Shown: piece by piece, positions 39,820-56,381 of the stretch
How the letters are laid out: each line of letters starts with the position of its first letter
Position numbering within the stretch: position 1 is the stretch's first letter
Assembly (NCBI GenBank): GCA_015059095.1
Contig: SVBA01000003.1
Location: 50,738-114,737, forward strand
From: Erysipelotrichaceae bacterium
GTDB taxonomy: Bacteria > Bacillota_I > Bacilli_A > RFN20 > CAG-449
Direction of reading: 5' to 3'
DNA length: 64,000 bases
Notes under the pieces: generated by a model
Seen by the model: the letters and a program-made list of their open reading frames with translations, nothing else
What the model was told of the DNA's origin: nothing
The model's database searches: none
Translations under genes and position numbers: made by a program

Positions 39820-39845
39820 AAGACAACTCAAAGATGAGTTGTCTT
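39820..39845 (-). terminator. Terminator at the end of the acyl-CoA/Liv locus
   Basis: Stem AAGACAACTC/GAGTTGTCTT with a 6-base loop, followed on the minus strand by TTTTTTAAAA. Confidence 0.85.
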
Positions 39846-39856
39846 AATAAGTAAAA

Positions 39857-40762
39857 TTATCTTTGAACGTATTCTAAGAAATCTTTTGCTAATTGATCAG
39901 GTAAATCTACTAAGATACTATGAGCACAATCGTCATAATATACTTGTTCAATTTGTTTAATCCAAGTTCTATTTTCACTAGTCATAATTTCTGGAGTAGT
40001 AATATCTTGTCTACCATTAAATGCGATTACAGGGCATTTAATATTCTTAGCAATGTCTTCACCTGGAGCATAGAAAGAAGTTTCTCCTGAAATATTAAAT
40101 CTCATTAATGCCCAGTCAGCATCAACTAAATTTACTTGTTTGCATGTTTCTTCTAAATATACTTCGTTTTCTTCTTCAGAAGGTCTTTTTTTAGATAATG
40201 AAGTATAGATAGTCATGTTCCAAATTGATTCCATGAACTTGTAATTCTTTGTTTGTTGACAAGTGACCATTGGAACAACTGTAACAGGGTCAAGCGCTAA
40301 TTCTTCTTTTGTTTCATAAATTTGACCAACTAAATTTTGGAAAGAAGCATCTTTTTTAAATACTGGATAACCTTTAACAGAACCAGAAGAAATTAGTACC
40401 ATTTTTTCAACTAACGAAGGATATCTAGCTGCAATACTTTGAGATACACAACCACCTAATGACCAACCAGTTAAGATACATTTTTCAACACCTAATTCTT
40501 TTAATAAAGCTACTACATCATCAGCAAGTTCATGTAAAGAATCAATTCTTGTATTGTATGAAGAATCACCATATCCTCTTAAATCTGGAGCAATTACTCT
40601 ATATTCATCAGGAATTCTTTTATATAATGGTTCATAATGATAAGAAGAAGAGAAGTTACCATGAACTAAAACAATAACTTTATCTCCCTTACCTTTTTCA
40701 ACATATGCAATTTTTTCACCATTTGGTAATGTTACATATTTTTTTTCAATTTTTAAAAACAT
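39857..40762 (-). CDS. Alpha/beta-hydrolase fold enzyme 1
   Basis: 301 aa serine hydrolase. Oxyanion 'VHGNFSSSYH' near 33-42, nucleophile elbow 'GWSLGG' near 99-104, acid 'NGRQDITTP' near 250 and His 'CAHSI' near 281. A cap domain lies between about 130 and 230. The nearest general families are enol-lactonases, meta-cleavage hydrolases and esterases. It is the last gene of the leftward acyl-CoA locus, 12 bp after a second hydrolase. Its nucleophile is Ser, not the Cys of PHA synthases. Substrate unknown. Confidence 0.78.
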   Translation of the reverse strand: MFLKIEKKYVTLPNGEKIAYVEKGKGDKVIVLVHGNFSSSYHYEPLYKRIPDEYRVIAPDLRGYGDSSYNTRIDSLHELADDVVALLKELGVEKCILTGWSLGGCVSQSIAARYPSLVEKMVLISSGSVKGYPVFKKDASFQNLVGQIYETKEELALDPVTVVPMVTCQQTKNYKFMESIWNMTIYTSLSKKRPSEEENEVYLEETCKQVNLVDADWALMRFNISGETSFYAPGEDIAKNIKCPVIAFNGRQDITTPEIMTSENRTWIKQIEQVYYDDCAHSILVDLPDQLAKDFLEYVQR

Positions 40763-40773
40763 AATTTTTCTCC

Positions 40774-41595
40774 TTAAATAACAAATTTTGTATCTTTTGC
40801 ATTAGCAAATCCTAATACTAATGAAATAAATAATAATGGATCTTCATACATTGATGCATGACCACAATGAGGTAAAATAACATGATGGGCATTTTTAAGT
40901 TCTTTTACGATTAATTCTTGTTCACAAAGCGGAGTTAAACAATCATATAAAGAAGAAATAACTAATGTTTCATGTTTAATTTTATGAATTTCAGTTCTAA
41001 TATCATGAGATTCAGAACTATTAACTAATCTATTCATTCTTTCTTGGAATGCTTTTGTGCTAAATAAAGGAACTAATACTTTTCTTCTATTTTCCATCCA
41101 TTCTTCTTTTTCTTGATAGAATTTAGAAGAATAAATAACTGGAATTGCTAAATCATAATAAGCATCTCCATCTAAAGTTTTTCCTACTGCATTCCATGCT
41201 CTACCAATATCTCTTAACCAATTACTAGTCCATGCAGCAGCATTAGCTAAAACCAATCTTTCAACATCTTTTGGATAGTATAAAGCATGTCTTAATGCTA
41301 CTTCTCCTCCATAAGAAACACCAACAATTGTTAAATGTTTTAATTCTAAATGTTCAATTAATGCGTGTAAAAGTTCAGCTTGTAAATTATGATCATAAGT
41401 TATTCCATCCATTCTTGATGAATAACCTTGATCCAAAAAATCGACTCTTACTAAAGTGTTTGAACTAATAACAGAATTTTTAAATGTATTCCAAGACGCT
41501 GTAGACATCATAATTCCGTTTAAAAATAGAATTGGTCTACCTTCTCCTTCTATTTCATAATAGACTTCATAGTCTTTAAAATTAAATTTTGGCAT
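40774..41595 (-). CDS. Alpha/beta-hydrolase fold enzyme 2
   Basis: 273 aa. 'FLNGIMMS' takes the oxyanion position (Asn-Gly rather than His-Gly), nucleophile elbow 'GVSYGG' near 93-98, acid 'SSLYDCLTP' near 218, and His 'HCGHASM' near 243. It is only weakly similar to the neighbouring hydrolase. It lies 4 bp after the CoA-transferase gene, so the three are one unit. A lactone, thioester or C-C bond hydrolase of the pathway is possible; nothing in the sequence decides between these. Confidence 0.78.
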   Translation of the reverse strand: MPKFNFKDYEVYYEIEGEGRPILFLNGIMMSTASWNTFKNSVISSNTLVRVDFLDQGYSSRMDGITYDHNLQAELLHALIEHLELKHLTIVGVSYGGEVALRHALYYPKDVERLVLANAAAWTSNWLRDIGRAWNAVGKTLDGDAYYDLAIPVIYSSKFYQEKEEWMENRRKVLVPLFSTKAFQERMNRLVNSSESHDIRTEIHKIKHETLVISSLYDCLTPLCEQELIVKELKNAHHVILPHCGHASMYEDPLLFISLVLGFANAKDTKFVI

Positions 41596-41599
41596 AGTT

Positions 41600-42931
41600 T
41601 TAGCCTCTTGGATAAATAATACCGATTTTAATTGCTTCTTCCATCAATTGTTCACGGAATTTTGGATGAGCAATAGAAATAATTTTTTCAACTCTTTCTC
41701 TAATTGTTGTACCTTTTAAGTTAACACAACCATATTCAGTAACTAAATAATCAATATCATTTCTTGATAATGAAACAGTTGCACCTGGTTTTAATTGACA
41801 TACAATTTTAGAAACTTCTTCTTTTTCACCAGTAGCTGGATTTCTAACCATTGCAGTTGAATATAAAGCAATAAATGATTTACCATTTTTAGACATTTGA
41901 GCACCAATAGCAGTATCAGATTGTCCACCAGTACCACTAAATTGCATTGAACCAATTGATTCAGAACAGCATTGACCAGTAACATCAACTTCTAAAGAAG
42001 TATTAATTGAAACTTGATTATCATTTTGAGCAATAACATAAGGATCATTTACATATGAACCTGCTAAAATAGCACAAGAAGGATTATTATCTAAATAATC
42101 ATACATTTCTCTAGTACCCATAGCAAATGCTGCAACCATCTTTCCTTTATGAGTTTGTTTACATTTACCATTGATTACGCCAGCTTTAGCAAGTTTTACC
42201 ATTTCAGAAGTTAACATTTCAGTATGAATACCTAAATTCTTCTTTCCGTATAATGATTTAGCAACAGCATTTGGAATACCACCAATACCTAATTGTAAAC
42301 AATCTCCGTCTTTGATATGATCAGCAATATATTTACCAATTGCCAAATCTTTTTCATTTGGTTCAGCATCTGGAATTTCAGGAATATCATAATCAACTTC
42401 AATAATATGATCAATATCATTTACATGAATTTCAACATCACCAAATGTTCTAGGACATTTTTTATTACATTCTATAATAACGATATCTGCTGCTTCAATT
42501 GATTCTTTTTCATAAACATTACTTAAAGATAATGAAATATATCCATGTTCATCTGGATAAGTACCATTACCAACATAAATATGTGGTTTAATATGCGCTA
42601 AACGTTTACTTGCAGCAAAGTGTAAGTTATTTGGAATAAATGAAATATTACCTTGCTTATGAGCTTTTCTTAAACCCGGAGCATAGAACCATCCATCAAC
42701 ACCAAAACTTTTACGATATTCTGGATTTTGGAAGAATTCATAAGTGTCCATTGGTAAGCAGTTATTAACTGTAACATTTTCTACTCTATCTGCGATAGTA
42801 TGTAATTGTTTTAAGAAAGCTTTACCTTCTGCAGAACCTAAACCAGTAATAATGTGATCATTACTTCTAACTAGTTTTAATGCTTCCTCTACAGTAATGA
42901 TTTTGTTTTTGTAATCTACCATAATTTTCAC
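41600..42931 (-). CDS. Acetyl-CoA hydrolase/transferase family CoA-transferase (butyryl-CoA:acetate or 4-hydroxybutyrate type)
   Basis: 443 aa, typical of Cat2/But enzymes. Moves CoA between acyl-CoA and acetate or another carboxylate through a glutamyl-CoA intermediate. 'LGIGGIPNAVA' near 212-222, the Glu of 'IHTEMLTSEMV' near 235-245, and 'SGTGGQSDTAIGAQMSKNGK' near 334-353 are family motifs. The N-terminal 'GLGSAEGKAF' is also typical. In this locus it would activate or discharge the acid handled by the acyl-CoA enzymes. Butyryl versus 4-hydroxybutyryl specificity cannot be told by eye. A separate promoter upstream is likely, since a terminator follows livK. Confidence 0.85.
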   Translation of the reverse strand: MKIMVDYKNKIITVEEALKLVRSNDHIITGLGSAEGKAFLKQLHTIADRVENVTVNNCLPMDTYEFFQNPEYRKSFGVDGWFYAPGLRKAHKQGNISFIPNNLHFAASKRLAHIKPHIYVGNGTYPDEHGYISLSLSNVYEKESIEAADIVIIECNKKCPRTFGDVEIHVNDIDHIIEVDYDIPEIPDAEPNEKDLAIGKYIADHIKDGDCLQLGIGGIPNAVAKSLYGKKNLGIHTEMLTSEMVKLAKAGVINGKCKQTHKGKMVAAFAMGTREMYDYLDNNPSCAILAGSYVNDPYVIAQNDNQVSINTSLEVDVTGQCCSESIGSMQFSGTGGQSDTAIGAQMSKNGKSFIALYSTAMVRNPATGEKEEVSKIVCQLKPGATVSLSRNDIDYLVTEYGCVNLKGTTIRERVEKIISIAHPKFREQLMEEAIKIGIIYPRG

Positions 42932-43136: not shown

Positions 43137-44621
43137 TTATTTTGCAGCTTCAACAGCTTTTAATGTAGTGATGCCTGAATAAACTTCTAATGCACCAGCA
43201 CCTAATGCGTTTTTAGTTAATTTGTTTAATGCTAAGTCTTGGATACCATATCTAGCACCATTTGCTAAATCAATAGCACCACCCATTGGGAAGTCATATG
43301 GAGCAGATTCCATAGCATCAATGTAGTTTTTCCAGTTTAGAACTTTACCAGCTTCTTCAACTCTATCTAAACCTTCAATGAACATATGACCAGCAATATA
43401 TCCTGCTAATGCATATGAGTTGAATGATAATGCCCAAGCAGCAGTTGGATCATTTTCTAATCCCCAAGCAAAGATTGCTTCTGCAACTGTCCAATATTCT
43501 TCAGAGAATCCTGGAACACCAGCATCATAGAATGTAGGAAGACCTAAAGTATCATCATAGATTTTATATCCAGCCCATAAACCAGTACCTACTGTATTAC
43601 TTGCATCTGGAGCATAAACATATGTGTCAGCGATATCTAACCATGCAGTAGCATAAGCTTCTCTAGTTTCAGTAATTGCACCAGAGTCAACTAAAGATTT
43701 TGCTAAATCTGTGTTAGCAGAAACATAAGATGTAATAACTTTAACATTGTCATAACCACCTGTTTTGAAGTATGACATAATTTCAGCAAATGGAGCTTGG
43801 TTAGCAGCGATAATTACAACGTCACAACCAGCATTCTTTAATGCTTGAACTGGAGTACCATGGTTAGTACCAGGAGTAGAAGCTGTAGTTACATAAGTAA
43901 TATCAGAAATACCTAATTTAGTTGCTTCTAATTTAATACCATTTAACATACCTTTACCAGCATCATCAGTAGTTGAGATGACACCAATTTTTTTACCACC
44001 TAGACCCATGTTGCCTTCAGTTTTAGCAACTGCTCTAGCTAATAATACTTGACCTTCAGCGTCATAAATTGGTTGAACAGACATAACTGCTTTATCATTA
44101 CCTTCTGCTTTTTGGTTAAATAAACCAGAAACACCAGTAGCAGCATATACCATTGGAATACCTTTTTCTTTAATTGTATCTAATGTAGCTTCTACAGTTG
44201 GAGTACCGAAGTGACCAACAAGAGCGAATACTTCATCTTCTTCAATTAATTTTTCAGTATAAGTAGCACCTTTTGCACCATCGAAACCATCATCATAATG
44301 TTTTAATTCGATTTTTAAACCTTCTTCGCCGAAACCGCCAGCATCATTATATGCTTTGAATGCAGCTTCTAAACCAGCGTTGAATGGACCACCAACAGTA
44401 GCAAATGCACCTGAAGTAGCAGCAGCGTTTCCAACTAAAATTTTTCCTTCACCAACACCTTGAGAAACTTCTTCTTTTACTTCTTCAGATTTTTCACTTG
44501 ATGGTGCGTCAGAAGATCCTGGACCTGGAGCAGGTTCACTAGAAGATGGATTACCAATTCCACATCCTACTAAGCTACCAACTAATGCTAGACTAGCTAA
44601 TAATAATTTATTTTTTTTCAT
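43137..44621 (-). CDS. Branched-chain amino acid-type ABC substrate-binding lipoprotein (LivK-like)
   Basis: 494 aa, longer than LivK of E. coli (369). Lipobox 'SLVGC' (Cys 20) and a Ser/Pro/Glu-rich linker of about 40 residues precede a periplasmic-binding-protein type I domain with the family start 'ILVGNAAATSGAFATVGGPF' at about 61. 'ALVGHFGTPTVEA' and 'VGTGLWAGYKIYDD' are typical of amide/urea/BCAA binders. The domain has insertions in the C-terminal lobe. The family also binds aromatic and dicarboxylic acids, so amino acids are not the only candidates. Confidence 0.85.
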   Translation of the reverse strand: MKKNKLLLASLALVGSLVGCGIGNPSSSEPAPGPGSSDAPSSEKSEEVKEEVSQGVGEGKILVGNAAATSGAFATVGGPFNAGLEAAFKAYNDAGGFGEEGLKIELKHYDDGFDGAKGATYTEKLIEEDEVFALVGHFGTPTVEATLDTIKEKGIPMVYAATGVSGLFNQKAEGNDKAVMSVQPIYDAEGQVLLARAVAKTEGNMGLGGKKIGVISTTDDAGKGMLNGIKLEATKLGISDITYVTTASTPGTNHGTPVQALKNAGCDVVIIAANQAPFAEIMSYFKTGGYDNVKVITSYVSANTDLAKSLVDSGAITETREAYATAWLDIADTYVYAPDASNTVGTGLWAGYKIYDDTLGLPTFYDAGVPGFSEEYWTVAEAIFAWGLENDPTAAWALSFNSYALAGYIAGHMFIEGLDRVEEAGKVLNWKNYIDAMESAPYDFPMGGAIDLANGARYGIQDLALNKLTKNALGAGALEVYSGITTLKAVEAAK

Positions 44622-44689: not shown

Positions 44690-45544
44690 CTATTTTTTTC
44701 CGCCCAAATAAGCTTCTACTAAACGCTTATCATTAATCAATTCACTAGCAGGGCCTTCTAGTGAAATAGAACCAAGTTCTAATACATATGCATAATCTGC
44801 GATTTTTAATGTTTGCAATGCATTTTGTTCTACAATTAGGATTGTAGTACCTTCTTTTTGAATTTCTTTTAATGTATTAAAGATATCTTTAATAATTAAT
44901 GGAGCTAAACCAAGAGATGGTTCATCAAGAAGTAATAATTTTGGGGATGCCATTAATGCTCTACCAATTGCAAGCATTTGTTGTTCACCACCTGAAAGAG
45001 TATTTGCTTGTTGTTTTCTTCTTTCCTTTAAAATTGGGAATAGACGATATACTCTATCAAAATTTTCTTTTTGTTGTTGACTAGCAGTTATTTTAACTTT
45101 TTGACCATCTTTTTCGATAATTTTGGTTTTTAATCCATAAGCACCAGCTTTTAAATTATCTTCTACATTTAATCCATTAAATACCAATCTACCTTCTGGA
45201 GATTGAGTTAAACCTCTTTTTGCAATATCGAATGCTTTTCTATTAGTAATATTTTCACCATTGAAAATAACTTGACCACCATTTGATTTAATAACACCAC
45301 TAATAGTTCTTAATGTAGTTGTTTTTCCAGCACCATTGGCACCTAATAATGCAACAATTTGGCCTTCAGATATTTTTAAATTAATACCTTTTACAGCTTG
45401 AATAGGACCATAATTAACTTTTAATCCATTGACAAGTAATACTTTATCTTGATCTTCGTCTGCAATTTCTACTTTAGATCCAATAAATTTAGATTTAATC
45501 TTATTTAGAACATTAGCGAAGAAATTTACTTTTTTATTTTCCAT
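44690..45544 (-). CDS. ABC ATP-binding protein LivF-like, with N-terminal extension
   Basis: 284 aa. ATPase domain from about 32 with Walker A 'GANGAGKTTTL', signature 'LSGGEQQML', Walker B 'LLLLDEPSLGLAP' and the C-terminal 'YLGGKK' of LivF. It has an extra 30-residue basic head ('FFANVLNKIKSKFIG') and a 16-residue Lys-rich insertion ('GLKTKIIEKDGQKVKI') before the signature that LivF usually lacks. Works with LivG on the cytoplasmic face of LivHM; 2 bp from livG. Confidence 0.88.
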   Translation of the reverse strand: MENKKVNFFANVLNKIKSKFIGSKVEIADEDQDKVLLVNGLKVNYGPIQAVKGINLKISEGQIVALLGANGAGKTTTLRTISGVIKSNGGQVIFNGENITNRKAFDIAKRGLTQSPEGRLVFNGLNVEDNLKAGAYGLKTKIIEKDGQKVKITASQQQKENFDRVYRLFPILKERRKQQANTLSGGEQQMLAIGRALMASPKLLLLDEPSLGLAPLIIKDIFNTLKEIQKEGTTILIVEQNALQTLKIADYAYVLELGSISLEGPASELINDKRLVEAYLGGKK

Positions 45545-45546
45545 TT

Positions 45547-46974
45547 TTATTCCTCCTCTTGTGTTCCTAAATATGCTGCTTGAACTTCTTTATTCTTTTG
45601 AATTTCTTCAGTAGTTCCAATAGCAAGTAATTTACCAAATGAGATAGCACATACTGTATCACAGATATCCATTACAAGTCCCATATCATGTTCAACTAAT
45701 AAGATAGTACAACCATATTTATCTTGAATTTTTCTAATTAACTTAGTTAATTCAGCAGTTTCAGTATCATTTAAACCTGCTGCAGGTTCATCTAAGATAA
45801 TTAATTGAGGATTGTTCATTAATGTACGAGCAATTTCAATTTTCTTTAATATACCATAAGGTAATCCCCAAGCTAACCAATCTTTATATAAAGATAATCC
45901 CATAAATTCAAGAACTTCTTCTGCTTTTTTTCTCATCGCTAATTCTTCTTTCTTAAGTGAAGGAAGATGTAAGAATTGAGTGAATAATGAAGAACGATAT
46001 TGAGAATGAGCTGCAACTAATAAGTTATCAATTACAGAAATTTCTTTAACTACTTCTACGTTTTGGAAAGTTCTAACAATTCCTTTTTTAACAATATCAT
46101 GAACTACATAATCAGTTAATGTAATTGTATTACCAGATTTTTCTTGAAATAATAATTTACCTTTTGTTGGTTTGTAGAATTGAGTAATACAGTTAAATAC
46201 AGTTGTTTTACCTGCACCATTTGGTCCAATTAAACCAAAGATTTCACCTTTTTTAACTTCAAATGATAAATTATCAACTGCTTTTAATCCACCAAATTGC
46301 ATCGTTAGATTTTCTACTTTTAAAACGATATTTTCATCTAATAATTCTTCATCATTTTTAAGTGTTTTTAATACCTCTTTATATTTTTCTATATTCATTT
46401 GAGGTTTAATAATACGTTTAGATAATTTTTCTTCAATTGCAGAAATTTTTTCTTCTTCAATTTTTCTAATATCTTTTGTATATTTTTCAATTTCTACTTT
46501 GCTACTTTCTTTTAAAGAAACTAAGCTTTTTCTAATTTCTTCTTTTTGGGCTTCATCAGTAACAATGTATTTAGATAGTTGTTTAGTTAAGCAATTTCTA
46601 ATTTTACTTTCAAACCACCATTTATGTTTATTTAGTTTTTCTAATCTAGTTTCATATTTAGAAACTGAAGATTCAGAATATTTTCTTAAGCGCATTCTTT
46701 GAATAATAAATCTTCTAGCCCAATAATCAAATTTATTGTAGATACGCATTTTAGATACCAATCTAGAACCTACTTCCTCATTTAAATCTAAGATAGCAAA
46801 TTCTAAGCGATTAATTTCTAATTCCTTACTTTTAATAAAGTTATTAATCTTTTTATCACATCTTTTAGAAACAACACTTTTATCATAAATTGCCATTTCT
46901 TTTAGGTGATGTATTTTTTCTGAATTTTTTTCTACTAAAGAAGAGTAGATACCATATTTATTAATAAGACCCAT
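45547..46974 (-). CDS. ABC ATP-binding protein LivG-like with a large N-terminal coiled-coil extension
   Basis: 475 aa, against about 255 for ordinary LivG. The ATPase begins near 217 ('[20 protein letters not shown]'), with Walker A '[11 protein letters not shown]', Walker B '[13 protein letters not shown]' and the LivG-type 'RTFQNVEV'. Residues 1-215 are Lys/Glu-rich helices without Gly/Pro, probably coiled coil, with a basic patch '[12 protein letters not shown]' near 88-99. AAGGAG lies 10 bases before the ATG, inside the end of livM, so the extension is translated. An internal Met at 193 might give a short form, but I see no clear site for it. Confidence 0.82.
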
Positions 46975-48103
46975 ACATTCTCTCCTTTATTTTTTTGAAT
47001 AATCTCTTAACTTTTAATTTTAATTCTAAGAATAATTGAGATAATCCTCCTGGGAAGAACATAACAATTACAACGATTAAGATACCACTAACAAGTCCCA
47101 TGAAACTTGGGTTCTTTTCAAAGAATTCAATTTCGTTTAAGAATAATGGTTGAATACCAAATAGAATCATTACTCCAAGTATTACTCCCCACAAAGATTT
47201 TGATCCACCAATAATTACTGCTCCAAGAATATTAAGTGAAGTATTTAAACTTAATAGAGGGTCATCAGTTGTACTTAATGAACTTGTTACACAAGTAATG
47301 TATAACAAACCACCAATAGCAGCATATACAGTTGAGATAACGAATGCTAATAAACGATATTTAATTAATGAAATACCCATTGCTTGAGCAGCACTTGTTG
47401 AGTTTTTCATAGTTACCATTGCTCTACCTGTAGGCGAATTAATTAAGTTTTGAGTCAAAACTAATAAGATAACAAAGATTACTGTTACTAATGCACACTT
47501 ACTCGCATTATCTAATTTAGTTAACCATAATATTGCATTTGAACTACTTACTTTAATAGTTGCAGTACCATTTAAGATTGATGCGATATTTTCTAATAAT
47601 TGGAAGATGATTTCTGCTAATCCTAATGTTAAGATAGCTAAATACATACCTTCAATTCTTAACGAGATAAACCCGACAAACATACCTAGAATTATCGATA
47701 CTATTATTGCCCCTAATAAAGCAATAAAGATTGATACATTAATTGCTTGTCCTCCTAGATACAAATAGAAAGGATATTTTTCTATGATGATATGAGCAAC
47801 CATTGCTCCTACCCCAACAAATCCTGCTGTACCTAAAGATGCCAATCCTGAATAACCAAGTAATAAACAGAATCCAATTGATATAATTCCATAAACGACT
47901 AATGTAGCTAATGTTTTAGACATTGAATATGGAATTATTTTTTTATTTGCCAAATTACCTAATACGATTAACACTATTCCCATTAATACGAAATAGATAA
48001 TTGGACTTTTTAAGAAATTAATTATTTTTCTTAAAACTTGTTTAATGATGTTGTCCTTTTTAAACATCATAGAAGGTGCTTTATTATATTGTTTCATTTC
48101 CAT
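46961..48103 (-). CDS. Branched-chain amino acid-type ABC permease LivM-like
   Basis: 380 aa. A basic N-terminus of about 33 residues is followed by eight or nine membrane helices. The LivM signature regions are present: 'LLGYSGLASLGTAGFVGVGA' near 83-102, 'RIEGMYLAILTLGLAEI' near 150, and the cytoplasmic loop 'GRAMVTMKNSTSAAQAMGIS' near 231-250. It follows livH by 2 bp and overlaps livG by 14 bp. Confidence 0.88.
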   Translation of the reverse strand: MEMKQYNKAPSMMFKKDNIIKQVLRKIINFLKSPIIYFVLMGIVLIVLGNLANKKIIPYSMSKTLATLVVYGIISIGFCLLLGYSGLASLGTAGFVGVGAMVAHIIIEKYPFYLYLGGQAINVSIFIALLGAIIVSIILGMFVGFISLRIEGMYLAILTLGLAEIIFQLLENIASILNGTATIKVSSSNAILWLTKLDNASKCALVTVIFVILLVLTQNLINSPTGRAMVTMKNSTSAAQAMGISLIKYRLLAFVISTVYAAIGGLLYITCVTSSLSTTDDPLLSLNTSLNILGAVIIGGSKSLWGVILGVMILFGIQPLFLNEIEFFEKNPSFMGLVSGILIVVIVMFFPGGLSQLFLELKLKVKRLFKKIKERMYGSY

Positions 48104-48105
48104 AA

Positions 48106-49038
48106 CTATACCTTCTTGACTACTTTCTTACCAAATAAACCATTTGGTCTAATATAAATAACAATCATTACTACAACATAGGAAATTACTTTAATCCATG
48201 AAGTAATACCTCTTAAAGATTCCACATTTGCAAAGAAGCCAACACAAGTTTCAAATACTGGAATAATAACTGCAGCAACTACTGGACCAACAAATGATCC
48301 AAATCCTCCAAGAATACCTGCTAAGAATGCATTAACTTGGAATTCTGTCATAATAAATGGATTAGTTAACGTACCATTTTCTCCAACAAACATTACACAC
48401 GCAAGAGCACCAAGCCCGCCTGCAATACCCCATGAAATAGCTGTAATTGCATATGTATTAACTCCCATCATTTGAGCAACATATTCATTTGATGCTGTTG
48501 TTCTTACTCCAAGTCCCCATTTTGAGAATTTTAATAAAACAAACAATACTCCAATAATAGCAATGGTTAATCCTAAACAAATTAATGAATGAACCGTAAT
48601 TGTTAATGATTTACCAGCAATATCTAAGACAATAGGTGGTGTATTTAATTGGTTAGTTAATCCTGGGAAAGTTGGAGGAGCTAAATACTTCCAAATCATT
48701 GGGATACCATTACCTAATATTGATACGATACCCATAGTAATAATCTGTTTACCTACCAAATTTACATTTCGTCCATTTCTAAAGATAACTAAATCAATAA
48801 ATAAACCAATCAAGATACCAAAGACAATGCCCATTAATAAACTTAACCAAATATTCCATTGCTTAGAAATTAAGAATGTTGAAGCAACATAACATCCAAG
48901 AGCAGCTACTGTTCCTTGAGCAAAGTTTGTTGTTGCAGATGTCTTAAATATCAAAGTAATTGCAAATGTTGCTAAGACTAAAACACAAATGTAAGTAAGA
49001 GAAGAAGCGAATGGCTGTAAGAAATCAGCTATTCCCAT
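48106..49038 (-). CDS. Branched-chain amino acid-type ABC permease LivH-like
   Basis: 310 aa, eight predicted helices. LivH markers: 'TSATTNFAQGTVAALGCYVA' near 33-52, the cytoplasmic loop 'GLGVRTTASNEYVAQMMGVN' near 175-194, and 'NAFLAGILGGFGSFVGPVVA' near 236-255. It starts 3 bp after the FabH-like gene ends, tying the transporter to the acyl-CoA genes in one transcript. Confidence 0.88.
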   Translation of the reverse strand: MGIADFLQPFASSLTYICVLVLATFAITLIFKTSATTNFAQGTVAALGCYVASTFLISKQWNIWLSLLMGIVFGILIGLFIDLVIFRNGRNVNLVGKQIITMGIVSILGNGIPMIWKYLAPPTFPGLTNQLNTPPIVLDIAGKSLTITVHSLICLGLTIAIIGVLFVLLKFSKWGLGVRTTASNEYVAQMMGVNTYAITAISWGIAGGLGALACVMFVGENGTLTNPFIMTEFQVNAFLAGILGGFGSFVGPVVAAVIIPVFETCVGFFANVESLRGITSWIKVISYVVVMIVIYIRPNGLFGKKVVKKV

Positions 49039-49040
49039 AA

Positions 49041-50063
49041 CTATTCACCCCACTTAATAATGTTTGCTGCCCAAGCATAACCAATACCAGCAGCGATCAT
49101 ACAAACTACTGATCCGTCTTTAACTTTACCTTCTTTTAATGCTAATTCTAAAGATAAGATTTGATCAATTTGTCCAACATGACCATAATTTTCTAGATAG
49201 ATTGATTGATGCTCTTCTAAACCTAATTCTTTTAACATTGCATAATGTCCAGAACGTTTCATATGTAATACATCTAAATAATCGATGTCAGCTCTAGTCA
49301 TACCTGCTCTTCTACAAGCTTCATCAATACAATGATACCAGTTAGGCATTGAAACTTCGTTTAAACGATCTTTCATTTTCTTAGGTTCCATTAATCTTAA
49401 TGATTTTCTAGATTCTTCTAAATTTTCATGAGTAATTGGATTATTAATACCACCAATTTCAACACCTGCAGTTCTAGAAATTGAACCATCAGACATAATC
49501 TTTGTACCTAATAACAAGTTTTTATTGTAATTTTTCTTTAATATGATTGCGCCACCACCAGCAGCTAGATTAAACATCATTGACATATTTGTATCTGAAT
49601 AATCAACAAAGTCACCATTTCTATAACCACCAACAACCATGATTGTATCAATTTCATCATCAGCGATTAACATAGATTTAGCAATCTCCATAGCTGCTAC
49701 ACAAGTACAACATCTATTTTGAACATCAATACCCCAAGCATTAACTGCTCCAATTTGATCTTGGATATAAATAGCAGATGTAGTTAATGGATATTCTTTC
49801 CATTCTTCACCAATACATAAGATAACATCGATGTCTTTTGGATCAACACCTGTGTTTTCTAAACAAGCTTTAGCAGCTCTAACACCCATTTCTTGAGTAC
49901 CATCATCATCTCCTGGAACTGGTTTTTGATTGATACCTAATTTGTTTCTAACTGCATCTTCACTCCAAATACCATTAGTAGCATCAGAAATTTCTTTAGC
50001 AGTCATAATCTTTTTTGGTAAGTAAGTACCTACACCAACAATACCAACATTAACTTTTGACAT
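49041..50063 (-). CDS. FabH-like thiolase-fold protein with altered active site
   Basis: 340 aa, 3-oxoacyl-ACP synthase III family. The fold can be followed end to end ('VGIVGVGTYLPKKIM', 'CIGEEWKEYPLTTSA', 'AGIGYAWAANIIKWG'). By alignment to FabH the catalytic Cys is 118 in 'DVQNRCCTCVAAM', with two extra cysteines beside it. His is 267 in 'VLHMKRSGH' (usual VPHQAN). The Asn of HGNTSAAS is replaced by His 295 in 'YGHVGQID'. So the triad would be Cys-His-His, not Cys-His-Asn. It lies between the acyl-CoA enzymes and the Liv permeases and is unlikely to be the housekeeping fatty-acid initiator. Reaction unknown. Confidence 0.75.
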   Translation of the reverse strand: MSKVNVGIVGVGTYLPKKIMTAKEISDATNGIWSEDAVRNKLGINQKPVPGDDDGTQEMGVRAAKACLENTGVDPKDIDVILCIGEEWKEYPLTTSAIYIQDQIGAVNAWGIDVQNRCCTCVAAMEIAKSMLIADDEIDTIMVVGGYRNGDFVDYSDTNMSMMFNLAAGGGAIILKKNYNKNLLLGTKIMSDGSISRTAGVEIGGINNPITHENLEESRKSLRLMEPKKMKDRLNEVSMPNWYHCIDEACRRAGMTRADIDYLDVLHMKRSGHYAMLKELGLEEHQSIYLENYGHVGQIDQILSLELALKEGKVKDGSVVCMIAAGIGYAWAANIIKWGE

Positions 50064-50085: not shown

Positions 50086-50805
50086 TTATAATCTCATACC
50101 ACCATTAACTTCTAATACTTGACCTGTAACATATGAAGATTCATCACACGCTAAGAATAAAGCAGCATTAGCAATTTCATGAGGTTGTCCTAATCTCTTT
50201 AACATTGTTAATTTAGCAAAATCATCTAATAAATTTTGAGGTACTGTTTTTAACATATCTGTCATGATGTAACCAGGAGCGATTGCATTACAGCGAACGT
50301 TAGCACCTTTTCTTGCAAATTCTTTTGCCCATGTTTTTGTCATACCAATTACACCAGCTTTAGATGCTGCATAATTAGCTTGACCAATATTACCAAATAC
50401 GCCTACAACACTAGAAATATTGATAATAGAACCATAACCATTATTTTCCATTTGAGGACCAAATAATCTAGTCATGTTGAATACGCCTTTTAAGTTAACT
50501 GCGATAACTGCATCAAACATATCATCAGTCATTTTTCTTGTCATAGCGTCTTTTGTAATACCTGCATTGTTAACTAAAATATCAACTTTGCCATATTTTT
50601 CTACTGCATAATTATAGAATTCTTGACAAGCAGCAGAATCTGTAATGTTTAATTTGTATAATTCAATATTTGGATTTTCAAATGTAGCGTCACCTAAATC
50701 AACTGCGATACATTTTGCTCCTTCACGTGCGAATAATTCACACATTGCTGCGCCTAATCCTCTAGCGCCACCAGTAACAACTGCAACTTTTCCTTCTAAT
50801 CTCAT
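50086..50805 (-). CDS. SDR 3-oxoacyl-(CoA/ACP) reductase (FabG/PhaB-like)
   Basis: 239 aa short-chain dehydrogenase. NAD(P) loop 'TGGARGLGAAM' near 11-21, 'NNAGITKDAM' near 79-88, catalytic Ser in 'INISSVVG' and YxxxK 'YAASKAG' near 144-150, and C-terminal 'YVTGQVLEVNGGM'. FabG/PhaB enzymes act on (R)-3-hydroxyacyl thioesters. With the MaoC-type hydratase and thiolase of the same operon this gives a stereochemically consistent (R)-route between acetoacetyl-CoA and crotonyl-CoA. Confidence 0.88.
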   Translation of the reverse strand: MRLEGKVAVVTGGARGLGAAMCELFAREGAKCIAVDLGDATFENPNIELYKLNITDSAACQEFYNYAVEKYGKVDILVNNAGITKDAMTRKMTDDMFDAVIAVNLKGVFNMTRLFGPQMENNGYGSIINISSVVGVFGNIGQANYAASKAGVIGMTKTWAKEFARKGANVRCNAIAPGYIMTDMLKTVPQNLLDDFAKLTMLKRLGQPHEIANAALFLACDESSYVTGQVLEVNGGMRL

Positions 50806-50838: not shown

Positions 50839-52047
50839 TTATTGAACTTTTTTTAATACTACTGCTGTACCCATGCCTCCACCGATACATAACGAAGCAA
50901 GACCTGTATTGAAGTTATCATTATGTTTCATTAAATGAATTAATGTAACAACAATTCTTGCTCCTGAAGCACCAACTGGATGACCTAAAGCAATAGCGCC
51001 ACCATTTAAGTTAGTCTTATTAAGAATAGATTCTGGAGTTACATTATGTTGAGATGATAACTCTTTTACTACTCCTAATGATTGAGCAGCAAACGCTTCA
51101 TTTAATTCTAAAACATCTAAATCATTAATTGATAAACCTGTTCTAGAAAGAACATCATTAACTGCTGCAACTGGACCTAAACCCATTAATTGAGGATCAA
51201 CTCCTCCTTGACCAACTCCAATGATTTCACAAAGGATTGGGAGATTATGTTCTTTAACTGCTTCTTCACTAGCGACGATAACATAAGCTGCGCCATCATT
51301 AATTCCTGAAGCATTACCTGCAGTTACACTACCTTGAGGATCAAATGCAGGTCTTAAAGTAGATAATTTTTCTAAAGAAGTTGTTCTATTTGGATATTCA
51401 TCTGTATCAAAAACAATTTCTTTTTTACGTTCTTTAATAATTATTGGAACAATTTCTTCTTTAAATGCACCTGAATCAACTGCTCTAATAGCTTTCTCTT
51501 GAGAATTAATTGCAAATGCATCTTGTTCTTCTCTAGTAATACCATATTTTTTATTAATGTTTTCAGCTGTAATACCCATGTGAACTCCACTATAAGCATC
51601 AGTTAAAGCATCATATACCATATGGTCGATTGCTTTAAATCCTCCCATCTTAACTCCTTGTCTAGTAGATTCTGGAATTAAGTATGGAGCAGATGACATA
51701 TTTTCAGCACCACCTGCTATAACGATTTTACTAAATCCTGCTTGGATAGAAACATAAGCATTGATAATAGCTTTCATACCACTACCACATACCATATTAA
51801 TTGCATAAGCTGGAACTTCTTGTGGAATTCCTGCTTTAATAGCAACTTGTCTAGCAAATCCTTGGCCTCTACCCGCGCTTAATACATTACCTGAAATTAA
51901 TTCATCGACATATTTTGGATCTAATTTTGTTTCTTCTAATAATTTTTTTACTACTACAGAGGCGAAATCAGCTGGATGGACATTTTTTAATGTTCCAAGC
52001 ATCGAGCCAATTGCGGTTCTTTTAGCTGCACAAATATAAATTTTCAT
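50839..52047 (-). CDS. Acetyl-CoA acetyltransferase (thiolase)
   Basis: 402 aa. Condenses two acetyl-CoA, or cleaves 3-oxoacyl-CoA. Nucleophilic Cys in 'INMVCGSGMKA' near 88, 'NEAFAAQSLG', 'LGHPVGASGARI' near 355 with the catalytic His, and the second Cys in 'SLCIGGGMG' near 387. Length is typical of biosynthetic thiolases (about 393). It is in the middle of the operon between etfA and the SDR gene. Confidence 0.92.
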   Translation of the reverse strand: MKIYICAAKRTAIGSMLGTLKNVHPADFASVVVKKLLEETKLDPKYVDELISGNVLSAGRGQGFARQVAIKAGIPQEVPAYAINMVCGSGMKAIINAYVSIQAGFSKIVIAGGAENMSSAPYLIPESTRQGVKMGGFKAIDHMVYDALTDAYSGVHMGITAENINKKYGITREEQDAFAINSQEKAIRAVDSGAFKEEIVPIIIKERKKEIVFDTDEYPNRTTSLEKLSTLRPAFDPQGSVTAGNASGINDGAAYVIVASEEAVKEHNLPILCEIIGVGQGGVDPQLMGLGPVAAVNDVLSRTGLSINDLDVLELNEAFAAQSLGVVKELSSQHNVTPESILNKTNLNGGAIALGHPVGASGARIVVTLIHLMKHNDNFNTGLASLCIGGGMGTAVVLKKVQ

Positions 52048-52073: not shown

Positions 52074-53057
52074 TTATTTTTGTAAATTTTTAATTTCTTC
52101 AATAACTAGAGGTAAGATAGCATTACCATCACCAACGATACCTAAATCTGCAACATTGAAGATTGAAGCACCTTTATCTTTATTAATAGCGATAATATAA
52201 TCTGAATCTTCCATACCTGCTAAATGTTGAACTGCACCTGAGATACCAAATGCTAAATATAAATCTGGTCTAACTGTTTTACCTGTTTGACCTACTTGTT
52301 TATCTTGAGGTAATTTACCTTCATCAACTAAAGATCTAGCAGTTGCAACTGAACCACCTAGTAAATCAGCTAATACTTTAGCGTTTTCTAATGATTCATC
52401 ATTACCACAACCTCTACCAACAGCTACAAGATGTTTAGCATCTTCAATCTTACCAACTTCTTGTTTTTGTTTTACATCTTCTAAAACTTCTACTTTTGGA
52501 GTATCAAATTTAACTTTTAATTCTCTTACTTCTACTACTTCTGGAACTGAATCAGTTCTTTTCATAACCCCAGGTCTAACTGTAGACATTTGTGGGCGAT
52601 GATTTGGACAAATAATAGTAGCAAATAAGTTACCACCAAATGCAGGTCTAGTTGAATATAAACTTCCATCAGCATCCATTTCAAGTTTTGTACAGTCTGC
52701 TGTTAAACCTGTATTAATTCTTGCTGATAATCTAGGAGCTAAATCTCTACCAATTGAAGAAGCACCAATTAATACTGCATTAGGATTAACTTCCTTAACT
52801 GCTTCTTCAAATGCTTTTGTATAAGTTTCATTTAAATAATGTTTCAAACATTTATCTTCTACATAGTAGATAATGTCTGCTCCACTTTTTCTTAATTCTT
52901 CAGCTTGTTTACTAGAAGTATCACCGATTACTAAAGCAACAACTTTAGCACCTTCGACATTTGAAGCTAATCTTCTAGCTTCACCACATAATTCATAGCC
53001 AACATTTTGAATAACGCCAGCTCTTTGTTCTACATATACTAAAATATCTTTACTCAT
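52074..53057 (-). CDS. etfA: Electron transfer flavoprotein subunit alpha
   Basis: 327 aa. With EtfB it takes electrons from the acyl-CoA dehydrogenase, or drives it in bifurcating butyryl-CoA systems. The C-terminal FAD domain shows 'VAVGRGCGNDESLE', 'GQTGKTVRPDLYLAFGISGA' and 'AINKDKGASIFNVADLGIVG' near 295-314. The start is the ATG at 53057 after GGTGAT; the track begins at an upstream GTG. The gene is 9 bp from etfB. Confidence 0.93.
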   Translation of the reverse strand: MSKDILVYVEQRAGVIQNVGYELCGEARRLASNVEGAKVVALVIGDTSSKQAEELRKSGADIIYYVEDKCLKHYLNETYTKAFEEAVKEVNPNAVLIGASSIGRDLAPRLSARINTGLTADCTKLEMDADGSLYSTRPAFGGNLFATIICPNHRPQMSTVRPGVMKRTDSVPEVVEVRELKVKFDTPKVEVLEDVKQKQEVGKIEDAKHLVAVGRGCGNDESLENAKVLADLLGGSVATARSLVDEGKLPQDKQVGQTGKTVRPDLYLAFGISGAVQHLAGMEDSDYIIAINKDKGASIFNVADLGIVGDGNAILPLVIEEIKNLQK

Positions 53058-53066
53058 ACTAATCAC

Positions 53067-53858
53067 CTATAAAATATGTCTTTCTTGTAATTTTTCAACG
53101 ATTAATTTAGCTGCTTCTCTAGAATCTAAATTATCTCTAACATCATGATTAGCACTAAATTCTTTATTACGAGTTTCTTTAACTCTAGTTGGAGAACCTT
53201 TTAAACCCATTTCGTTAGCGTCAACTTGAATATCATTAAATCCAATAACTGAAAGAGGTTCCTCTTCACAATTTGAAGTAACATTCATAATACCTTTAAC
53301 TCTCATATAACGAGCTTTAGTAGCACTACTTAAACAAGTTAATAATGCAGGACTTGGTACTTTTAATACTTGATGACCATCTTCAAATTGTCTAGTTACT
53401 TTATATCCACCATCAACTACTTCAACATTTGTAACATAAGATACTTGAGGTAAATCTAAATGTTCTGCAATTTGAGGACCAACTTGAGCAGTATCACCAT
53501 CAATTGCTTGTCTACCTGCAATAATTAAATCATATTCCATTGTTCTAATTGCTGCTGCTAGAGCTTTTGAAGTAGCTAATGTATCTGCACCTGCAAATTC
53601 TCTACCAGAAAGTAAGACACCTTTATCAGCACCCATAGCAACTGCTTCTGCTAATACTTTGTTAGCTTGCATAGGTCCCATAGAAATTACTGTAACATGA
53701 GCACCATGAGCTTCTTTTAATCTTAATGCGAATTCTAAACCTGCTTTATCATCAGGATTCATGATTGATGGAACACCATCTCTTTTTAAAGTACCATCTG
53801 GATTAATTTTAACTTCAGATGTATTTGGTACTTGTTTAATACAAACAATAATCTTCAT
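53067..53858 (-). CDS. etfB: Electron transfer flavoprotein subunit beta
   Basis: 263 aa. 'CIKQVPNTSEVKINPDGTLK' at the start, 'VISMGPMQANKVLAEAVAMG' near 58-77 and 'GRQAIDGDTAQVGPQIAEHL' near 115-134 are typical. Bcd-linked bifurcating EtfB from clostridia shares this general pattern with respiratory ones, so bifurcation cannot be claimed from sequence by eye. The genes run bcd, etfB, etfA as in butyrate producers. Confidence 0.93.
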   Translation of the reverse strand: MKIIVCIKQVPNTSEVKINPDGTLKRDGVPSIMNPDDKAGLEFALRLKEAHGAHVTVISMGPMQANKVLAEAVAMGADKGVLLSGREFAGADTLATSKALAAAIRTMEYDLIIAGRQAIDGDTAQVGPQIAEHLDLPQVSYVTNVEVVDGGYKVTRQFEDGHQVLKVPSPALLTCLSSATKARYMRVKGIMNVTSNCEEEPLSVIGFNDIQVDANEMGLKGSPTRVKETRNKEFSANHDVRDNLDSREAAKLIVEKLQERHIL

Positions 53859-53872
53859 CTTTCATTCCCTCC

Positions 53873-55012
53873 TTATTTTAATAAAGCACCAGAGATGACC
53901 ATTCTTTGAACTTCTGAAGTACCTTCATAGATTTCAGTGATCTTAGCATCTCTCATCATTCTTTCAACTGGATAATCTCTTGTATATCCATAACCACCAT
54001 GTAATTGAACACATTTTGTAGTTACTTCCATAGCAGTTTCAGCTGCAAATAATTTTGCCATTGCTGCTGCTACTGAGACATCTTTTGCTTTATTTTGTTT
54101 CTTTTCAGCTGCTTGATAAACTAATAATTTAGTAGCTTCCACTCTAGCTTTTAAATCAGCTAAAATGAATTGAGTGTTTTGGAAAGCTGAAATTGGACGC
54201 CCAAATTGTTTTCTTTCTTTAACATAAGCGATTGTTTCTTCTAAAGCACCTTCAGCAATACCTAAAGCTTGAGCTGCAATACCAATACGACCACCATCTA
54301 AAGTTTTCATTGCAATTTTGAAACCTTCACCGATTCTTCCTAAAACATTGCATTCAGGAACGAAACAATTTGTAAAGATTAATTCACAAGTAGATGATCC
54401 TCTAATACCCATCTTTGCTTCTTTTTTACCAACTCTGAAACCTTCATAAGTTGATTCAACGATAAATCCAGTAATACCTCTAGTACCTTGAGATTTATCT
54501 GTCATTGCAAAGATGATATAAACATTTGCATAACCTGCATTAGTAATAAAGATTTTAGTACCATTTAATACATAACCACCTTCAACCTTTGTTGCAGTTG
54601 TTTGTTGATATGAAGCATCAGTACCAGCGTTAGGTTCAGTTAAACCAAATGCTCCTAACCATTCACCACTAGCAAGTTTTGGAACATATTGAGCTTTTTG
54701 AGCTGGTGTACCAAACTCTAAGATAGGTGAAACGCATAAAGAAGTATGTGCAGATAATACTACCCCAGTAGTACCACATACCTTCGATAATTCTTCAACA
54801 GCAGAGATGTACATTTTCATATCTCCACCTGCTCCACCTAATTCAGTAGGAACATTAATTCCCATTAATCCACATTCTGCCATTTTCTTAACAGTTTCAG
54901 CTGGGAATCTTTCTTCTTCGTCTACTTCTTTAGCTAAAGGTTTAACTTCATTTAACGCAAACTCTTTAATTAAATCAGCGAATAATTCATAACGTAAATT
55001 AATATTTTCCAT
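53873..55012 (-). CDS. Short-chain acyl-CoA dehydrogenase (Bcd-like)
   Basis: 379 aa, normal length. FAD/substrate motifs: 'AFGLTEPNAGTDASYQQTTA' near 135-154, 'MGIRGSSTCELIF' near 200, 'LHGGYGYTRDYPVERMMRDA' near 339-358. The catalytic Glu lies in 'IYEGTSEVQRM' near 364. Most like butyryl-CoA dehydrogenase of anaerobic Bacillota; it would interconvert crotonyl- and butyryl-CoA (or a branched analogue) with EtfAB. It is 5 bp after the MaoC gene. Confidence 0.9.
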   Translation of the reverse strand: MENINLRYELFADLIKEFALNEVKPLAKEVDEEERFPAETVKKMAECGLMGINVPTELGGAGGDMKMYISAVEELSKVCGTTGVVLSAHTSLCVSPILEFGTPAQKAQYVPKLASGEWLGAFGLTEPNAGTDASYQQTTATKVEGGYVLNGTKIFITNAGYANVYIIFAMTDKSQGTRGITGFIVESTYEGFRVGKKEAKMGIRGSSTCELIFTNCFVPECNVLGRIGEGFKIAMKTLDGGRIGIAAQALGIAEGALEETIAYVKERKQFGRPISAFQNTQFILADLKARVEATKLLVYQAAEKKQNKAKDVSVAAAMAKLFAAETAMEVTTKCVQLHGGYGYTRDYPVERMMRDAKITEIYEGTSEVQRMVISGALLK

Positions 55013-55017
55013 AGATA

Positions 55018-55428
55018 TTAACCTCTATTCATAATTGTTGCTTTACCAGTAATTACAACTTTACCTTCTTGGTTAGTACAAACTGTTGAAAGAATGATTC
55101 TACTCTTTTCTGGAATAGTTTCAATAATTTCACAAGTAGCAGTAATTGTATCACCAATATAAACTGGTGCAGTAAATCTTAATTCTTGCCCCATATAGAT
55201 AGAGCCAGGTCCAGGAAGTTTATTTCCTAATACTGCAGAGATAAGCCCACTAACTAAAATTCCGTGAGCAACTCTCTTACCAAAGATACCTTGTTTAGCT
55301 GCTTCTTCATCAATGTGAACTGGATTGATGTCTGTAGATACGCCTGCAAATAAAATTACATCAGTTTCTGTAATTGTTTTGCTTGTAGAAGCTTTCATAC
55401 CTACTTGAAATTTTTCTTCAAATGCCAT
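55018..55428 (-). CDS. MaoC-like (R)-specific enoyl-CoA hydratase (PhaJ-like)
   Basis: 136 aa hot-dog fold protein. The hydratase 2 signature 'FAGVSTDINPVHIDEEAA' (catalytic Asp and His) is near 27-44, followed by 'FGKRVAHGILVSGLISAVLG'. Size equals PhaJ (about 134). It adds water to crotonyl-CoA to give (R)-3-hydroxybutyryl-CoA, whereas the usual clostridial Crt gives the (S)-form. First gene of the leftward operon, with TAGGAGG before the ATG and a regulated region in front. Confidence 0.88.
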   Translation of the reverse strand: MAFEEKFQVGMKASTSKTITETDVILFAGVSTDINPVHIDEEAAKQGIFGKRVAHGILVSGLISAVLGNKLPGPGSIYMGQELRFTAPVYIGDTITATCEIIETIPEKSRIILSTVCTNQEGKVVITGKATIMNRG

Positions 55429-55616: not shown

Positions 55617-55635
55617 ACGTTTATCTTATAAACGT
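55617..55635. repeat. Perfect 8-bp palindrome between maoC and tetR
   Basis: ACGTTTAT, CTT, ATAAACGT. Unrelated to the TGAAT sites, so it may be an operator for a second regulator. Confidence 0.5.
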
Positions 55636-55664
55636 AATTATATCGAACCTAAGTTCATTTTAAT

Positions 55665-55678
55665 TGTAAACGCTTTCC
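55665..55678. promoter_or_regulatory. cre-like site upstream of tetR and the acyl-CoA operon
   Basis: TGTAAACGCTTTCC matches the cre consensus TGWNANCGNTNWCA at all but the last position and has the central CG. It would bring the locus under CcpA control. Confidence 0.6.
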
Positions 55679-55784
55679 TTGTCAATATAGAATTTATATA
55701 TATTTTAATTTTTTTTATCTTTTTTCGATTATTTCCATTATAATATAATTATATTACTGAAATTTCGACTATTAGGAGGCTAAT

Positions 55785-56381
55785 ATGGAGTTCATTTTAC
55801 CAAAAACAAAGAAAGCACGTGAAAAGTTTGATAGAATTATTCAAGCAGCAGATTATCATATTTATACATATGGTTTTGAAAAAGCAAGTATTGCTAATAT
55901 AACTGCTTCTGCAGATGTAGCAACAGGAACTTTTTATTTATATTTCAAAGATAAATTAGAACTTTATCACTACTTACTAGATGATTATCAAAGACGTATC
56001 AAAGAGCACATCAAATTTAGAAGTATTGGTTGTAAAACGCGTGAAGAAAAAGAAAGAATTGGTCTAATCGCATGGTTAGAATTCGTCAACGAAAATCCAC
56101 ACACTTATTCCATTATTTGGCAATCTTTAGCAATTAATAAAGAATTATTTATTAACTATTATAAAAAATTCGTTTCTTCATATGAAAAAGGTCTAAATAG
56201 AGATGCATCGCAAGTCATTGATATGGACTTAGAAGACCTTTCTTTAATGTTAATGGGCATTTCTTCTTTCCTTGGATTAAAAGGTATGATAAATGATGAA
56301 ATTGTACTTTCTCAAGAAGAAATCGAAAAAACAGCTGATCAAATAATGGCTGCATTAAATTCAGGAATATTTAAAAAATAA
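55785..56381 (+). CDS. TetR/AcrR-family transcriptional regulator
   Basis: 198 aa. N-terminal HTH at about 15-62 with 'IANITASADVATGTFYLYFKDK'-type recognition region (quoted in part: 'ADVATGTFYLYFKDK'). The C-terminal ligand domain is aromatic-rich near 85-125. It is divergent from the acyl-CoA operon across a 356-bp region with two TGAAT-N4-ATTCA palindromes, so it is the likely local repressor with an acyl-CoA or imported acid as inducer. TAGGAGG precedes the ATG. Followed by a long hairpin terminator. Confidence 0.87.
   Translation: MEFILPKTKKAREKFDRIIQAADYHIYTYGFEKASIANITASADVATGTFYLYFKDKLELYHYLLDDYQRRIKEHIKFRSIGCKTREEKERIGLIAWLEFVNENPHTYSIIWQSLAINKELFINYYKKFVSSYEKGLNRDASQVIDMDLEDLSLMLMGISSFLGLKGMINDEIVLSQEEIEKTADQIMAALNSGIFKK

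Follow-up and report, generated by a model that had tools for sequence, protein, structure and literature searches.

Which reaction is catalyzed by a KASIII-fold protein when its gene is embedded in an operon for import and acyl-CoA oxidation and reduction? The question is raised by the protein designated KASX in this report, which is encoded in a window of 64,000 nucleotides (the whole stretch of DNA analyzed) from an Erysipelotrichaceae bacterium. An earlier note, made from the sequence, had pointed to a FabH-like ORF with unusual active-site residues at 49041-50063. This ORF was found to be intact, with 340 codons encoding a protein of 340 aa, and it lies on the minus strand, a detail left unstated in that note.

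KASX gene and family

KASX is a full-length member of the NCBIfam family NF005308/PRK06840, which it matches over residues 4-340 with 487.3 bits for a cut-off of 315. The family is functionally uncharacterised and bears the name '3-oxoacyl-ACP synthase'; the role in fatty acid synthesis conveyed by this name is unsupported by the sequence and the context of KASX. No paper naming PRK06840 was found in the literature searched, and searches devoted to the KASX family or to its operon gave no paper on either. KASX is not new as a sequence, since its family is already numbered and named. What appears to be new, judging from sequence comparisons, is the combination of a CerJ-like triad with an uptake and catabolic setting.

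The Pfam domains ACP_syn_III and ACP_syn_III_C of the KASIII fold are both recognized above their cut-offs. The AlphaFold2 model displays a mean pLDDT of 84.5 and a pTM of 0.87, and FabH structures rank first when this model is submitted to Foldseek. The scores obtained with families of assigned function are all below the corresponding cut-offs: 126.7 bits for fabH (cut-off 292.1), 15.6 bits for Thiolase_N (26.4), and 54.7 and 68.2 bits for the HMG-CoA synthase families TIGR00748 and PRK04262 (353 and 244); PF01154 (HMG_CoA_synt_N) gave no match. In a tree computed without CerJ, the Bacillota, Maledivibacter and haloarchaeal KASX proteins form a single clade apart from FabH with a support of 100/99. 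At least 540 candidate stretches with KASX relatives were retrieved across bacterial and archaeal genomes, cultured carriers including Peloplasma aerotolerans and Clostridium rhizosphaerae. The distribution is patchy: none of the seven genomes of the same genus that were examined contains the gene.

Operon and genomic context

The KASX gene belongs to an operon of fifteen minus-strand genes extending from 55428 to 39857, with intergenic gaps of mostly 0-35 bp (Table 1, first fifteen rows, in operon order).

Table 1. Features of the KASX operon and its surroundings in the window.
Feature	Position	Strand	Basis or remark
MaoC-type dehydratase, (R)-specific enoyl-CoA hydratase-like	55018..55428	-	family match
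Short-chain acyl-CoA dehydrogenase / enoyl-CoA reductase	53873..55012	-	family match
EtfB-like electron transfer flavoprotein subunit	53067..53858	-	sequence and synteny
EtfA-like electron transfer flavoprotein subunit	52074..53066	-	
Thiolase, acetyl-CoA C-acyltransferase	50839..52047	-	TIGR01930
SDR, FabG/PhaB-like 3-oxoacyl or acetoacetyl-CoA reductase	50086..50805	-	
KASX, NF005308/PRK06840	49041..50063	-	proposed triad Cys118, His295, Asp300
LivH-type permease	48106..49038	-	
LivM-type permease	46961..48103	-	
LivG-type ATPase with N-terminal extension	45547..46974	-	
LivF-type ATPase	44690..45544	-	
Substrate-binding lipoprotein	43137..44621	-	Peripla_BP_6
Carboxylate CoA-transferase	41600..42931	-	AcetylCoA_hydro / AcetylCoA_hyd_C
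ab2, alpha/beta serine hydrolase	40774..41595	-	motif NGIMMSTxSW
ab1, alpha/beta hydrolase	39857..40762	-	NF050089 match
TetR-family regulator, divergent, weakly FadR-like	55785..56381	+	
Promoter-like site upstream of MaoC	55657..55685	-	11/12 consensus match only
Perfect 8+8 inverted repeat ACGTTTAT-CTT-ATAAACGT	55617-55635		between divergent TetR gene and operon
Terminator-like hairpin after ab1	39820..39845	-	11 pairs and T-run

The ab1 protein scores above the cut-off of the intracellular short-chain-length PHA depolymerase family NF050089 (314.6 for 300), and the scl-PHA depolymerase family was likewise recognized, at E<=1e-20, in each of the 12 orthologues that were scanned. The ab2 motif of Table 1 is that of the Bacillota, a similar one (NGVMMSTASW) being present in Chloroflexota. 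The hairpin downstream of ab1 is the probable end of the operon. The inverted repeat might serve as a TetR operator, a proposal that stays a guess because the exact palindrome was found in no other locus.

To measure how far this arrangement is conserved, genes were counted in the 34 related loci that had 10 kb of flanking sequence at both ends. LivM, LivG and LivF are present in 34/34 of these loci, LivH, the binding protein and the CoA-transferase in 33, the SDR and ab2 in 32, and ab1 and TetR in 31. Lower counts were obtained for thiolase (24/34), MaoC (13/34), acyl-CoA dehydrogenase (12/34) and the EtfA and EtfB pair (11/34), while two neighbouring genes of the window used as negative controls gave 0/34. 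In 76 of 80 related loci, KASX is immediately flanked by the SDR gene on its upstream side and by LivH on its downstream side. The transporter/acyl-CoA operon described in the earlier note is borne out, and it is much more conserved than that note could know, recurring in many anaerobic bacteria.

The context is reduced or rearranged in several lineages. On haloarchaeal plasmids, KASX (32-36% identity) directly follows LIV permease genes, and an alpha/beta hydrolase, an acyl-CoA ligase and a MaoC gene are found nearby in most loci; the ligase replaces the CoA-transferase, and no PHA-depolymerase-like gene is annotated at these haloarchaeal loci. At the Maledivibacter locus L163, KASX adjoins a CoA-transferase gene and no Liv genes occur within the stretch examined. 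Locus L056 comprises only TetR, thiolase, SDR, KASX and ab1, the transporter genes being missing. The Chloroflexota plasmid CP069395 keeps the operon order with a different KASIII paralogue.

A number of further observations were made at these loci. The CP069395 paralogue (L149:7983-8990) has Thr-Gln where the catalytic His would be expected and Tyr instead of Asn274, and its operon includes an added thiolase and a DUF35-type OB-fold protein. A Clostridia operon from water-buffalo caecum carries, in addition to KASX, a second KASIII designated KASY with Tyr at the Asn274 position (L075:18535-19509). A PAS/sigma-54 activator replaces TetR at two KASX loci (L133:8373-9830 and L163:7853-9292), the assignment being Pfam-confirmed for L133 only. 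In Maledivibacter halophilus (L161 and L162, G424:C16), about six KASIII-fold genes are clustered with SDR, HADH-like, SCP2, aldehyde-dehydrogenase/LuxC-like and ABC export genes, and this group looks like an uncharacterised biosynthetic cluster. Its KAS2 and KAS3 proteins contain GHMGPVD or AHMGPVD, i.e. the His-x4-Asp spacing once more.

Active-site residues

Cys118, His267, His295 and Asp300 showed no variation in any of three sequence sets: 22 Bacilli sequences, 102 distinct close homologues, and an alignment of ten rows that covers Bacilli, Clostridia (Maledivibacter) and haloarchaea, the last with 32-36% identity. These residues belong to the motifs 'RCCTC' (117-121), 'VLHMKRSGH' (265-273) and 'YGHVGQID' (293-300). 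Cys118 aligns with the nucleophile Cys of FabH. All the alignments made agree in placing His295 on Asn274 of FabH, as the earlier note had proposed; the conservation of this His in 102/102 close homologues and in 10/10 rows of the alignment reaching haloarchaea indicates that the Asn-to-His change is not due to chance. Asp300, five residues past His295 in the motif 'GHVGxxDQ', had been missed.

The other histidine is more difficult to place. His267 aligns with FabH Gln245, one residue beyond His244, in ungapped MAFFT, HMMER-profile and HHalign alignments, and it falls on His244 only in a single-sequence phmmer alignment with two compensating gaps. The His244 column itself is occupied in profile-level alignments by Leu266 in 102/102 close homologues and by Thr, Asn or Val in distant members. 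The Cys-His-Asn triad of FabH is consequently absent from KASX, Asn274 being His295 and His244 being, by profile, Leu266.

The cysteine cluster (CCTC) to which the earlier note had drawn attention did not survive comparison. Only Cys118 is invariant. Position 119 is Cys in 101/102 close Bacillota homologues, certain other sequences (L035, L056, L057) carry Ser there and the haloarchaeal ones Ala or Gly, and position 121 is Thr, Cys, Ala, Ser or Gly, with Cys in 35/102 close homologues. A metal or redox site was ruled out in view of this variation. Invariance in Bacillota extends to His267, Lys269, His273 and Glu86/Glu87, but in the ten-row alignment position 86 is Ser in haloarchaea and position 87 is Thr in one Maledivibacter copy. 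The position of the HMG-CoA synthase catalytic Glu79 corresponds to E86 with HHalign and to E87 in the ungapped alignment, depending on gap placement. The presence of an OleA-like Glu seems unlikely in view of the position of this residue in OleA.

To judge from these alignments, the described active site nearest to that of KASX is that of CerJ and ChlB3, rather than that of KAS I/II. In a C-terminal profile alignment, GHVGAGDQ...GGGAGYT of CerJ (PDB 3s3l) is matched by GHVGQIDQ...AAGIGYA of KASX, where FabH shows GNTSxAS; CerJ is devoid of His in the FabH His244 column, as is KASX in the profile register. Full-length similarity between the two proteins is weak (phmmer E 1.1e-8). CerJ and ChlB3 are KASIII-fold acyltransferases with a Cys-His-Asp triad, in which a His stands at the FabH Asn position with an Asp beyond it, the ChlB3 residues H296 and D301 lying at the corresponding positions (PMC9573744). 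Activity of CerJ is lost in the C116A, C116S and H295N mutants, and the Asp mutant retains 0.3% (PMC9573744).

Proposed function

We propose, with a probability of about one half and by analogy with CerJ, that KASX is a CoA-dependent acyltransferase of CerJ-like chemistry operating in catabolism. The mechanism can be briefly summarized as follows. Asp300 would orient His295 for the activation of Cys118; this Cys would be acylated, and the resulting acyl-enzyme would then pass its acyl group on to a second acceptor. The importer, the CoA-transferase and ab1 suggest both direction and substrate: the productive direction would be thiolytic, Cys118 splitting an imported short acyl ester and CoA receiving the acyl group. 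The ester might be a 3-hydroxybutyrate-type oligomer or similar, although a 3-hydroxybutyrate ester taken by itself is a rather doubtful choice of substrate. The acyl-CoA would then be converted through SDR, thiolase, MaoC and acyl-CoA dehydrogenase into acetyl-CoA and butyrate, while the CoA-transferase would recycle CoA and the two hydrolases, ab1 and ab2, would deal with other ester bonds.

Several observations speak against the acyltransferase. His267, His273, Lys269 and Glu86/87, invariant in Bacillota, are unexplained by CerJ chemistry, and CerJ itself is biosynthetic. A catalytic 'GH' His is placed in thiolases as His295 is in KASX. A step of ester thiolysis looks redundant because the operon already contains two hydrolases. 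The haloarchaeal loci, with an acyl-CoA ligase for the CoA-transferase and no annotated PHA-depolymerase-like gene, also count against it.

Beyond the precise chemistry, KASX may tentatively be regarded as the hallmark enzyme of a catabolic pathway that is coupled to uptake and has so far gone unrecognised. This pathway would be shared by many Bacillota and, in a reduced version, by haloarchaea, and its KASIII-fold protein would act in breakdown instead of biosynthesis, using CoA for the cleavage of a C-C bond or the thiolysis of an ester. The earlier note had allowed for a new condensing or cleaving reaction, and a cleavage or transfer to which no enzyme of this family has been assigned is plausible. 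Members of NF005308 bear a name taken from fatty acid synthesis, and both bacteria and archaea have KASX beside a LIV-type importer. Should KASX be a catabolic acyltransferase, these genomes are wrongly annotated, and the assigned pathways leave out a widespread anaerobic carbon source.

Alternative readings and the host genome

The main rival to the acyltransferase is a thiolase-like, non-decarboxylating C-C enzyme cleaving or forming a 3-oxoacyl-CoA or a beta-keto acid with CoA or acetyl-CoA, which we consider less likely. Cys118 would act as nucleophile and His295 in the manner of the 'GH' His of thiolases, the acid/base for the carbanion being His267 or Glu86/87. The Glu-Glu pair at 86-87 lies near the catalytic Glu of HMG-CoA synthase. 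The adjoining SDR could supply or consume 3-oxoacyl-CoA, and CoA-transferase partners, typical of CoA-dependent cleavage pathways, fit such a reaction. SDR, KASX and CoA-transferase persist together in the 10/34 loci where thiolase was not found, but 24/34 loci have a thiolase already. Moreover, Asp300 at the CerJ position is no thiolase feature, and distant members do not retain the full E86-E87 pair, given Ser86 in haloarchaea and Thr87 in the one Maledivibacter copy. A BKACE-like cleavage of beta-keto acids was considered by analogy (PMC10470551, PMC6365646) and set aside, there being no direct evidence for it.

The remaining readings depend on the contents of the host genome (G000; 1.76 Mb, estimated 95% complete), in which absences rest on family searches. 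No match was obtained for PF00109 (ketoacyl synthase, FabF), PF01039 (acetyl-CoA-carboxylase carboxyltransferase) or PhaC_N; no FabH was found at E<=1e-40 and no HMG-CoA synthase at E<=1e-20. One carrier-protein-like gene is present. The search method works, since it did recover each of the missing families from known genomes. This genome with a butyrate-type operon is apparently devoid of de novo type II fatty acid synthesis.

KASX could also make 3-hydroxyacyl esters as a substitute for PhaC, forming oligo-3-hydroxybutyrate together with thiolase and reductase, with ab1 as the depolymerase. The order thiolase-SDR-KASX resembles PhaA-PhaB-PhaC, the transporter-free locus L056 retains just TetR, thiolase, SDR, KASX and ab1, and PhaC_N is missing from the host genome, but KASX is consistently linked to an importer and a CoA-transferase, which points to uptake, and no phasin or granule gene was noticed among those of the operon; ester synthesis is considered improbable. 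A PHB storage pathway with PhaC proper was ruled out by the lack of a PhaC_N match in the host genome.

The reading suggested by the earlier note was a decarboxylating condensing enzyme, in which a Cys-His-His arrangement of the KAS I/II type would extend an acyl-CoA with malonyl-CoA. The KASIII fold and the two invariant His residues are compatible with it, and His295 fits the arrangement. The analogy is nevertheless doubtful because the first His, His267, is out of register with FabH His244 by one residue in profile alignments and because FabF, carboxyltransferase and, at E<=1e-40, FabH were undetected in the genome. Malonyl-CoA-dependent condensation is therefore unlikely in this host; no link to type II fatty acid synthesis was found there, FabF and carboxyltransferase being absent from the search results. 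The operon, devoted to transport and acyl-CoA oxidation and reduction, is a further argument against condensation, which we hold to be quite improbable.

Finally, despite its fold and its automatic annotation as '3-oxoacyl-ACP synthase', KASX can hardly be the ordinary FabH of fatty acid synthesis, in line with the earlier note, since it scores far below the fabH cut-off, has lost Asn274 to an invariant His and probably His244 as well, falls with its haloarchaeal and Maledivibacter members in a clade of its own, and coexists with a separate FabH or FabH-like gene in G079, G082, G424-G427 and G430.

Comparison with known systems

FabH (KASIII) shares with KASX the fold, the nucleophile Cys and a glycine-rich C-terminal motif. 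KASX differs from it by the replacement of Asn274 by His, by Leu, Thr, Asn or Val in the His244 column, by the added Asp300 and by a context unrelated to fatty acid synthesis. PqsC is likewise a FabH-like enzyme without the Asn: it carries Val299 in its place, keeps the FabH-type His269 and performs decarboxylative condensation, so that loss of the Asn is evidently tolerated (PMC4807248). HMG-CoA synthase has a related fold, and a Glu of KASX lies near its catalytic Glu79 position, but HMG-CoA synthase retains the Asn, and KASX neither matches PF01154 nor reaches the TIGR00748 and PRK04262 cut-offs.

CerJ and ChlB3 transfer acyl groups and make no C-C bonds, whereas DpsC, a Ser-His-His protein of the same structural group as CerJ, is described as catalyzing a Claisen condensation (PMC9573744). 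A CerJ-type motif thus does not by itself exclude C-C chemistry. CerJ and ChlB3 (PDB 3s3l, 7eqi) resemble KASX in the KASIII fold, in the nucleophile Cys (C118), in the His and Asp (H295, D300) and in the GHVGxxDQ motif. They differ from it in serving natural-product biosynthesis with sugar hydroxyl or ACP acceptors, where KASX belongs to an uptake and catabolic operon and possesses in Bacillota the extra invariant His267, Lys269, His273 and Glu86/87.
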